Shown: positions 4,360 through 11,590 of the stretch, one piece after another
How the letters are laid out: each line of letters begins with the position of its first letter
Position numbering within the stretch: position 1 is the first letter of the stretch
Notes under the pieces: generated by a model
What the model was told of the DNA's origin: nothing
Seen by the model: the letters and a program-made list of their open reading frames with translations, nothing else
Databases searched by the model: none
Assembly (NCBI GenBank): GCA_023864145.1
Contig: JAIVER010000017.1
Location: 1 to 11,590 of the forward strand
Source: Thiohalomonas sp.
GTDB lineage: Bacteria; Pseudomonadota; Gammaproteobacteria; GRL18
DNA length: 11,590 nucleotides
Direction: 5' to 3'
Translations under genes and position numbers: made by a program

Positions 4360-5001
4360 ATGCAAGATTATCAACGTGCCTTTATTGAATTTGCCATCAA
4401 CAAAGGAGTGCTTCGTTTTGGTGAGTTTACCCTGAAATCCGGGCGCATCAGCCCTTATTTTTTTAATAGCGGTTTATTTGATACAGGAGGCTCTTTAGCG
4501 AAACTAGGGCGTTTTTATGCCAGTGCATTAATAGCCAGTGAAATTGAATTTGATATGCTGTTTGGCCCGGCTTACAAAGGTATTCCTCTGGCTTCAACCT
4601 GTTCGATTGCTCTGGCAGATGAGCATGGACGAGACTTGCCTTATAGTTTTAATCGCAAAGAAGCTAAAGATCATGGAGAAGGGGGTACGATTGTCGGCTC
4701 TGCACTGAAAAATAAAGTGATGATTATTGATGATGTCATTTCTGCCGGTACCTCGGTTCGCGAATCCATTGAGCTGATTAATCAGGGAGGGGCAACTTTA
4801 GCGGGTGTGGTTATTGCCCTTGATCGTCAGGAATTAGGTAAGGGTGATGTTTCGGCAATTGCTGAAATTGAAAAAAATTACGCTATGCCTGTCACCAGCA
4901 TTATTAAACTGGAACATCTGATTTCATTCCTGCAGGGCAACACTGAGCTGGCACAATATTATGACAAAATTCAGGCTTATCGTGATCGCTATGGTGCTTA
5001 G
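4360..5001 (+). CDS. pyrE: orotate phosphoribosyltransferase
   Basis: PyrE catalyses orotate + PRPP to orotidine 5'-monophosphate + PPi, the fifth step of UMP synthesis, as a cytoplasmic homodimer. The 213 residues equal the length of the E. coli enzyme. Visible motifs: the N-terminal orotate region [16 protein letters not shown] (23-38), [11 protein letters not shown] (68-78), [15 protein letters not shown] (95-109) with the flexible catalytic loop, and the PRPP-binding motif [13 protein letters not shown] (120-132) with adjacent acidic residues. The ATG at 4360 follows an AAAGG ribosome site. The stop is TAG at 4999-5001, and its last G is the first base of an inserted MITE. Removing the insertion restores TAA with the same protein end, so the gene is intact. 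No native terminator remains between pyrE and the insertion. Confidence 0.97.
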
Positions 5002-5160
5002 GGCCTTGGAAATAATAAATTTTCCAAGTTTTACGTCGCTATTTTATTCAGATTCAAGGCGTGATAAAGGGCGCATAGTTAGCCTACGCAACCTTTATCA
5101 CGACACAGAAGCTGGATAAAAGGGCAATTAAAACTGGAGCATTTATTATTTCCAAGGCCC
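5001..5160. mobile_element. MITE-like 160-bp near-palindromic element with 20-bp perfect terminal inverted repeats
   Basis: The left end GGGCCTTGGAAATAATAAAT (5001-5020) is the exact reverse complement of the right end (5141-5160). The element is flanked by TTA on both sides (4998-5000 and 5161-5163), a 3-bp target duplication of the TNA type known for some IS5-family subgroups; that assignment is inference. Inside, CGTGATAAAGG (5060-5070) pairs perfectly with 5092-5102, and the arms between pair imperfectly (AGTTTTA... against TAAAACT). All pairings share one centre near 5081, so the whole unit is one long imperfect palindrome. It has no coding capacity and must rely on a transposase elsewhere. 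It lies between the converging 3' ends of pyrE and the START-domain pseudogene and may act as a bidirectional RNA hairpin. Confidence 0.87.
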
Positions 5161-5184
5161 TTAAACTTGGAATAATGATAATAA

Positions 5185-5901
5185 TTACTCAATACCAACC
5201 AGATCGATTATAGCTCCTTGTGCATCAAGCACTAATCTGGCTTTTTGATATTTGTGGTTAAAGACCTTTTTTCGTAAGCCCTGTAAGGTATGATAGGGCA
5301 TCGCCTTAATTAATTAATTGATTGACCAGCCACAGGGGTAAATTACCACCAGGATTGGTATGATGCGTCCAGGTGACTCTGGTGATGTTATGTGCAACTG
5401 GCTTTAATAAATATTCTCCATGAGAGTGCTCAACTCTCATAAGTGATGATTTTGAGATAAGAGAACATGCTTTTCATTTTGTTGGCAAAATTCGGGAATA
5501 GCCTCCATTTGAATGCGAACCTCACCTGTTTGAGGGGAACGGGAAATCCTGGAATGAAAAATAAATTCACGATTGTGAGCCGGAAATGCTAATTGATGAA
5601 CTTGATAATAATAACTTTCTGAAAATGATTTTCTAAAAAGTAATAGTGGATTTTTACAGCGGTGAACCCAGTCAGTACCGGCGTCAACATCCACAATAAC
5701 GGCGGGTAGGCTATCCACAGAAGAATTAATATGGATTATGCCCTTAAACGATTTAATATCGTCAGCCCAGAATTCTTTTAAATAAACCTGAATGCCGTCC
5801 TCATCCCTGAGCATTTCCCAGTCATATTGTGAGCTTGCAAATGTTTCAAATGTGAACAGAAACATGATAAGCAATAACATTAATTTGAATTTTGTTCTCA
5901 T
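5185..5901 (-). pseudogene. START-domain (StAR-like lipid-binding) exported protein, broken by two frameshifts
   Basis: The intact first part starts at ATG 5901 (AGGGTG ribosome site) and runs to a premature TGA at 5437, 154 residues. Residues 1-23 are a signal peptide ending TFAS. The rest resembles bacterial START-domain proteins: WEMLRDEDGIQVYLKE, then FKGIIHINSSVDSLPAVI, DWVHRC and HNREFIFHSR. The missing C-terminus is still present in other frames: VEHSHGEYLLKPVAHNITRV and TWTHHTNPGGNLPLWLVNQL follow in the next frame. Then, after an AATT-repeat slip, KAMPYHTLQGLRKKVFNH leads to a stop at 5185. Adding one A to the four-A run near 5451-5454 and removing one AATT near 5303-5316 rebuilds a protein of about 237 residues. 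The ligand is unknown. The gene ends 24 bp from the MITE. A sequencing error could explain the A-run change but not easily the AATT duplication. Confidence 0.85.
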
Positions 5902-10241: not shown

Positions 10242-10420
10242 TTACCCACAACTCACAGGCATATTATAATCGAGGAGACTATAATAAATTCAATGAGTTA
10301 CAAGTTGAGTGCTATGCGGGGTCGGAGTCAAATGGCAAAAAGTATAAAATTAATAGTTAAACCTAGTTTAATCAGTTGAAAATAGGCTAAAATCACAAGT
10401 TTTTGAAAAACAAGGATGAA

Positions 10421-10651
10421 ATGATGGTTTTGCCACCCAAATTTGAACACCCAACGGGTGATCAGGCTTTAGCGACTAGAAATCCACTTTCTGAGGAGGT
10501 AGAAGTTGACACTTATGCTGGGAAATTACATATTGAATGGGATTCCAATGGCAAAGTCACCCCCATGGGGCAATTAGCCTTTTTCATCCAGTTTTTAAAA
10601 TTAGGTGGTCCATTTGATCCCTGGGTAAGCGATTGTCCTTTACATTATTGA
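10421..10651 (+). pseudogene. IS1380-type transposase, N-terminal remnant
   Basis: About 77 residues from ATG 10421 (MMVLPPKFEHPTGD...) to TGA 10651 match the opening I recall for one group of IS1380-family (DDE_Tnp_1_4) transposases: KFEHPTGDQALATRNPLSE, then VEVDTYAGKLHIEWD, a GQLAFFIQFLK helix and WVSDCPLHY. Intact members run to more than 400 residues, so the DDE catalytic domain is absent. The frame stops abruptly after DCPLHY, where relatives continue with a serine- and proline-containing stretch. AAGGATG (10412-10418) is a plausible ribosome site for 10421; a TTG at 10403 in the same frame is less likely. It should be inactive. The family call rests on memory, not a search. Confidence 0.65.
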
Positions 10652-10756: not shown

Positions 10757-11590
10757 TTAGTGCACGGCTCTGGTTGGTGGATAGCCAATTATGGACAGCT
10801 AGTCATCCACTTTTTGGCCAGAAATGCATTCATGGGTAGAAGTCCCTTTGTAACGACCCTGCCTGCGTGTTTTTAGGTTGTACCAAGCTTTAAAAAGCTC
10901 TAGAAAATTCTGATTAATGCCTTTTCGCACATAGAGATAAGGACGTAACACTGAATTAAATCCTTCAATCGCACTGGATGCCCGATAACGATTTTCGAGT
11001 AAACCTTTAATGCGATCAAGTAATTCATCCAGGTTGTCACCCAACTCTTGCTGCAGATTACGAAAAAGCGCCTGAAAGAATTGGTATTTTTTTTGATAGT
11101 CTCGAATGTGTTTCTGCTTTTTCAATTCATCAAGCAGACGTAACAACAAACAACTTCGGCTGACCTGAACCCTGGAGTATTGTGGTGTTAAAATAGCCAA
11201 TTCAACATCCAGCGCATGGGCGGCATAAGCAATACCAGTCACTCTATTTTCAATGTAAGTGGCCAGCTTCTGGCAATGGTATTGCGGGATGATTTTTAAT
11301 GTGGTTGCTGCTGTTCTCATCATCATTTCAACCCGACTACCTGAGTAGAACTCACCTGTTTCAGGATGGACAGTTTGCATTGCTTCAATGATCAATTTTG
11401 CGGCCACTTCAAACTGATCAAATTATTCAATTTTTTCCAGATTGAAGCTGTTTCTTAAGTTTGACTAATTTCTTTTGCAAACTGTATTCATTTTCGATGG
11501 TATTATATACCCATGACCTATGAAAATGCTTGATTTTCATAGAGAAGAAGCTCAAAATTATCCAATGACGCAAATTACTCTCACAGCCCA
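10757..11590 (-). pseudogene. degraded DDE-type transposase, family unresolved, running off the window
   Basis: The longest intact piece (GTG 11407 to TAG 10799) gives 202 residues: HPETGEFYSGSRVE, a helical QKKYQFFQALFRNLQQELGD region, then ASSAIEGFNSVLRPYLYVRK and FLELFKAWYNLKTRR. The SAIEGFN segment looks like the final catalytic Glu region of a DDE transposase. The same frame continues past the TAG as LSIIGYPPTRAVH to TAA at 10757, so the TAG is a nonsense mutation. Upstream, an in-frame TAA lies at 11425-11423. Beyond it the protein continues in another frame (SWVYNTIENEYSLQKKLVK, open from near the window edge to a TGA at 11427) across a six-A run at 11436-11431. I could not name the IS family. 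The 105 bp between this and the IS1380 remnant (10652-10756) hold a 7-bp hairpin (10712-10731) and probably the end of this element. Confidence 0.75.

Follow-up and report, generated by a model that had tools for sequence, protein, structure and literature searches.

How can a mobile element insert into a stop codon and leave the encoded protein unchanged? This question is raised by the 3' end of pyrE in a DNA stretch of 11,590 nucleotides from a Thiohalomonas genome, referred to here as the window (its genome is G000 among the 16 compared genomes of the genus). The stop codon of pyrE in the window is TAG (4999-5001), and its final G doubles as base 1 of a 160-bp element (Table 1). Removal of the element together with one TTA leaves GGTGCTTAAAC, and the pyrE 3' end of the nearest relative, G001, whose PyrE is 99% identical to that of the window, is exactly this junction, i.e. 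an empty site. Where G001 reads GGTGCTTAAACCTGG, the window reads GGTGCTTA, the element and then TTAAACTTGG. pyrE was detected in 15 of the 16 genomes (the window's own counted), and the element is absent from the 300 nt past the pyrE end in all 14 relatives in which that end was read; pyrE of G010 and G011 likewise terminates in GCT TAA. Because the site is empty in G001 and the element is absent in the 14 relatives, the element entered the pyrE stop on the window's branch, duplicating TTA and converting TAA to TAG while PyrE remained unaltered. A first-pass annotation had deduced the target duplication and the protein-neutral change of stop codon from the window alone and had proposed an alignment with relatives. 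This comparison bears it out, as TTA stands on either side of the element in the window and once in G001, where the junction reads TAA. The pyrE case is therefore an exact, relative-verified instance of protein-neutral insertion of a mobile element into a stop codon. The further suggestion of that annotation, that the insertion may have parted pyrE from an original 3' UTR or terminator, is conjectural. By eye, no obvious terminator follows directly after the pyrE stop in the G001 empty site, and CCCTTAAAC, which lies directly 3' of the element in the window, has no T run.

Table 1. Coordinates of pyrE, the inserted element and its parts in the window.
Feature	Position	Strand	Basis
pyrE (orotate phosphoribosyltransferase), 213 aa	4360..5001	+	ORF; TIGR00336 205.7 bits vs cut-off 106.8
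Left TTA copy of duplicated target	4998..5000	.	Ala codon base 3 + stop TA; G001 empty site
160-bp MITE, long imperfect palindrome	5001..5160	.	Hairpin fold, family alignment, flanks
Left terminal inverted repeat	5001..5027	+	25/27 bases as in left end of G011 insertion sequence
Direct repeat TTTCCAAG, inner copy	5021..5028	+	
Apical stem-loop, conserved family interior	5060..5102	+	Inverted repeat, alignment of copies
Right terminal inverted repeat	5134..5160	-	22/27 bases vs either end of G011 insertion sequence
Direct repeat TTTCCAAG, outer copy	5149..5156	+	
Right TTA copy of duplicated target	5161..5163	.	G001 empty site

The element contains no internal ORF of 60 aa or more and no transposase gene, and its ends read GGGCC...GGCCC, so that the first base is G on both strands. 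Its ends recur in two complete insertion sequences of 1302 and 1303 bp (G011:C153:6082-7383 and G007:C23:25157-26459), each flanked by TTA on both sides. Of the 27 left-end bases of the window element, 25 are identical in the left terminus of the G011 insertion sequence and 24 in that of G007, and the right end of the element has 21-22 of 27 bases in common with them; matches at E ≤0.001 are confined to the ends, the interior being at noise level. The 369-aa ORF of the G011 insertion sequence scores 231.1 bits against NF033519 (ISAzo13; cut-off 200) and 210.3 bits against PF07592 (cut-off 26.9), and reaches 44 bits with an IS630 model, below the cut-off of 100. By these profile scores it is an ISAzo13-family transposase, and the G007 protein is 88% identical to it. 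The window element, having no ISAzo13 transposase, does not itself qualify for that family; on the sequence criteria tested, it appears to be a MITE derived from an ISAzo13-type insertion sequence. Relatives of the transposase at E ≤1e-5 were found in none of G000, G001 and G015, and G014 has only a fragment with 53% identity. This absence is weak evidence, since the drafts are fragmented and repeats are often missing from them, and a source transposase in the same cell is a candidate only, none having been found in G000 at that threshold.

A genus search with the element (E ≤0.001) gave matches in five of the 16 genomes. Copies with paired ends are present in four of them (G000, G001, G014 and G015); in the fifth, G011, the matches are confined to both ends of a single insertion sequence. 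A family-wide search (E ≤1e-6) found the element in 4 of 24 genomes, none outside the genus; a search of plasmid records for distant matches to the element found none, and viral contigs contained no match to an exact pattern of its conserved interior. At least 43 end pairs were called by a script from the fetched stretches. They include at least 21 copies of 32 bp (eight each in G001 and G014, three in G000, two in G015) and at least 15 of 158-160 bp (ten in G001, two each in G000 and G015, one in G014); the remaining rows are two of 1302 and 1303 bp and five of 60, 188, 210, 416 and 469 bp. The pairings behind the 210-bp and 469-bp rows (G014:C304 and G015:C285) were judged spurious. Identical 3-bp flanks border 32 of the other 41 called elements (21 TTA and 11 TAA), a proportion biased towards flank agreement by a caller that allowed extra end mismatches when the flanks agreed; the flanks of nine are unequal, one of these being cut by a contig end. 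The catalogue is a lower bound, as 40 of 52 first-look candidates were scored in G001 and part of the listed ends was fetched. Single ends lacking a partner (e.g. C145, C165 and C42 of G000) were left out of the counts, and a 31-bp look-alike, G000:C38, was neither called nor counted.

Other sites also have empty counterparts. The site of the G001 C344 copy is empty in G000 and G010, that of the 32-bp copy C359 is cleanly empty in G010, and the empty site for G000:C31 rests on a continuous 97% match. The G000:C31 copy is the 416-bp row (L026:1050-1465, i.e. G000:C31:4049-4464), a MITE copy divided by some 260 bp of inserted DNA with the ends TATACCC/GGGTATA; the G001 C451 copy, which has the same left flank, is uninterrupted. 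As a separate observation, the C344 site occurs in G001 in a second, 94% identical version that lacks the element (L255, G001:C176:5698-5957), which suggests a duplicate or mixed strains within the G001 draft. The MITE centre (around AAAGGG.GCATAGT...CTACGCAACCTTT), which lies outside the element ends, is near-invariant in both subfamilies of the 15 long copies.

The identification as a MITE made in the first-pass annotation thus stands: the element is short, ORF-free and multicopy, and shares its ends with complete insertion sequences. The boundaries 5001 and 5160 are upheld by copies in the window's genome and three further genomes that end at the corresponding bases. The further copies with TNA duplications for which it had suggested a search were found, and neither contrary outcome that it had named, relatives with no empty site or copies with mismatched ends, occurred.

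The element is very probably a non-autonomous MITE moved in trans by an ISAzo13-family transposase, with stops preserved on insertion and some copies collapsing later. In this mechanism, the transposase, supplied in trans as the common ends suggest, would cut a 3-bp target TTA or TAA, and gap filling at the cut target would give the 3-bp direct repeat. For a target that shares bases with a TAA or TAG stop there are two outcomes, both with a stop at the same codon: the first repeat retains the entire TAA, or the first G of the element completes its T-TA to TAG. pyrE is a case of the second kind, its stop completed by the G of the element. Later deletion between short direct repeats would remove the interior of some copies and leave a 32-bp palindrome.

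The positions of the copies relative to genes were classified at 38 sites, the two complete insertion sequences included. These are the 43 rows minus five: the two spurious pairings, G001:C451 (cut by a contig end and orthologous to G000:C31), and G001:C20 and G001:C345, each the second of an orthologous pair. Two doubtful rows were kept, namely the 188-bp row G014:C202 and G014:C340, which can also be read as 31 bp with unequal flanks. Genes were taken as open frames of at least 80 codons in 131-800 bp of flank, so that short genes are missed. On this basis, seven sites coincide at least partly with a stop codon, 11 follow one at a distance of 3-30 bp, 13 lie otherwise between frames and seven are inside frames. 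If sites were drawn at random from the TTA/TAA positions of these loci, 0.7 of the 38 would be expected to overlap a stop, and 3.1 of the 31 non-coding ones (p ~0.02; 0.008 against independent genus loci). Stop overlap was seen in 6 of 15 rows of 70-1000 bp vs 1 of 21 shorter rows. None of the seven stop-overlapping insertions alters the encoded protein: TAA is retained at four sites and TAG at one, and in the window and G001:C123 TAA has become TAG. All seven stops survive because no reading other than TAA or TAG is possible where a TTA/TAA target is followed by the G of the element, and this simple target-plus-G rule explains how one family can repeatedly land in stop codons with the protein intact. 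A literature search on stop-codon restoration through insertion found no report.

The excess is not peculiar to the stop codon. The zone from the stop to +30 bp holds 18 of the 31 non-coding sites vs 8.9 expected in the same loci (2e-5), or 1.8e-6 against independent loci (164 of 859 non-coding positions). Within this zone, the stop codon shows no clear enrichment (7 of 18 vs 40 of 122 background positions), and the bias is therefore one towards gene 3' ends in general. Such a bias would be expected if the family actively targeted gene 3' ends, e.g. transcription ends or terminator DNA, as opposed to surviving there after random insertion. However, purging from genes and promoters would yield an identical picture, the stop codon itself does not stand out within the zone, and neither the 3' zone nor the stop-codon class contains either complete insertion sequence; active targeting is accordingly considered somewhat unlikely. 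We infer that 3' ends are the commonest places because copies elsewhere are purged or such places are less preferred. Combined with the target-plus-G rule, this leads to a tentative generalisation, held with less than even confidence, that the family is stop-safe: with its TTA/TAA target and leading G, copies would build up at 3' ends and collapse there to 32-bp palindromes.

Collapse in place is observed at one pair of orthologous sites. The 32-bp palindrome G000 C26 is orthologous to the 160-bp copy G001 C20, with flanks 97.0% and 93.5% identical, so that a 160-bp copy has collapsed where it stood. As this pair illustrates, a short palindrome dispersed in a genome can be what remains of an eroded mobile element. 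Several 160-bp forms carry direct repeats of 6-8 bp near their ends, and the deletion predicted between them gives exactly 32 bp; in the window element, the predicted deletion between the two TTTCCAAG copies would give a 32-bp palindrome of a type seen elsewhere. Of the 21 short copies, 13 are letter-identical to a predicted deletion product, and for these and the other 32-bp copies collapse is the probable origin, judged from their sequence. The longest near-end direct repeat leads to 32 bp in only 4 of the 15 long copies.

Alternatively, the 32-bp palindromes could be mobile elements in their own right that never passed through a 160-bp form. At least 21 copies fall in this one length class, many with a TTA/TAA duplication of their own, eight of the 21 equal no predicted product exactly, and one site is 32 bp long in both genomes (G000 C18 and G001 C345). 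The clean empty site of C359 in G010 has also been counted in favour of this reading; it fits insertion followed by collapse as well as movement of the short form. The orthologous pair argues against it, since one palindrome stands where a relative has a 160-bp copy, and several palindrome variants are the deletion products of different long copies. In addition, the 60-bp copy G001:C19 (reverse complement) matches, at 55-56 of its 60 bases, the deletion product of a second repeat, of 11 bp, which occurs in three other copies. Independent mobility is thus regarded as unlikely, and collapse of MITE copies is retained as the preferred reading.

The long palindrome could also have been kept as a functional RNA hairpin at mRNA 3' ends, acting as a terminator, a stabiliser or an RNase III site. 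The window sequence 4998-5163 folds as a single long hairpin of -80.3 kcal/mol, and 200 dinucleotide shuffles of it have a mean of -32.1 (z = -12.1), with none as low, so the hairpin is not due to chance. Among the 15 long copies, 15 of 57 consensus pairs have changed on both sides, and in 12 of the 15 the aligned strand folds more stably than its complement, the window copy being an exception. The two-sided changes, however, mostly separate the two subfamilies, which leaves few independent events behind them; since the copies are of common descent, they cannot be counted as independent events, and template switching can keep the arms of a palindrome matched without selection on RNA. Moreover, no U run follows the hairpin in the window, at the stop sites the element lies in either orientation with respect to the gene, and Rfam gives no match in the window at gathering cut-offs. 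A retained RNA function is accordingly decidedly improbable as an account of the element. That the structure is a chance inverted repeat or an assembly artefact can be given practically no credence in spite of the 432-contig draft of G000, in view of the folding z and of the matching ends and duplications shown by copies in four genomes.

Some further features of the window and its genome were observed. The convergent gene 3' of pyrE (5185-5901, minus strand) is frameshifted in the window and intact in G001, and from its sequence looks like a pseudogene in the window. Positions 10357-10486 resemble a stretch in at least 15 G000 contigs, the window's own included (18 of 101 candidates scored); the window end therefore belongs to a multi-copy repeat, which is perhaps an insertion sequence. 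The nearby 202-aa ORF (10799-11407, minus strand) has no Pfam or NCBIfam match at E ≤0.001. G000 is 1.94 Mb in size and 94% complete, and the other 15 genomes of the genus are 2.1-5.2 Mb except G008 (1.7 Mb, 64% complete); the small size of G000 may reflect genome reduction. A literature search on insertion sequences in Lucinoma symbionts found no report.

Several known systems resemble parts of this case. ISAzo13 elements produce 3-bp duplications, according to introductory remarks in a study of other transposons (PMC10045372), and the G011 element, with its above-cut-off transposase and 3-bp flanking repeats, is like them in this respect. The window element differs in being ORF-less and sharing only the ends with this family (PF07592, NF033519). 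A literature search, with most subscription papers outside its reach, found no ISAzo13-linked MITE. MITEAba12, as described in the available portion of its source, is likewise short, with ends like those of a complete insertion sequence and a target duplication of the parent's length (PMC6382973). It has a different parent family and a 9-bp duplication, in contrast to the 3-bp TTA/TAA here, and the window MITE, unlike MITEAba12, pairs over nearly its whole length (PMC6382973). The pneumococcal BOX repeat can supply the stop codon of a gene with no strong sign of truncation, and 36 of 58 overlaps with CDS are at the extreme 3' end, at least in the sections of the paper at hand (PMC3049150). BOX is thus similar to the window element in providing a stop codon, whereas it is modular and variable in size, and those sections describe no target-plus-G rule (PMC3049150). 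In Haloquadratum walsbyi, core deletion of PATEs is mediated by repeats; PATEs are given in the accessible text as of IS605-type origin and without terminal inverted repeats, whereas the collapsing element here is a MITE (PMC3119063). REP sequences, in the excerpt available, are palindromes of 20-40 bp scattered genome-wide, comparable to the 32-bp copies (PMC3733652). The difference is that at least one 32-bp palindrome here is a MITE remnant. REP sequences are associated with RAYT transposases. If the stop-safe generalisation is true, it would offer a direct route by which REP-like intergenic repeats arise from an insertion sequence. MITEs, stop-supplying repeats and repeat-mediated core deletion are all already known; to these the present case adds a stop-safe rule and one documented decay step.
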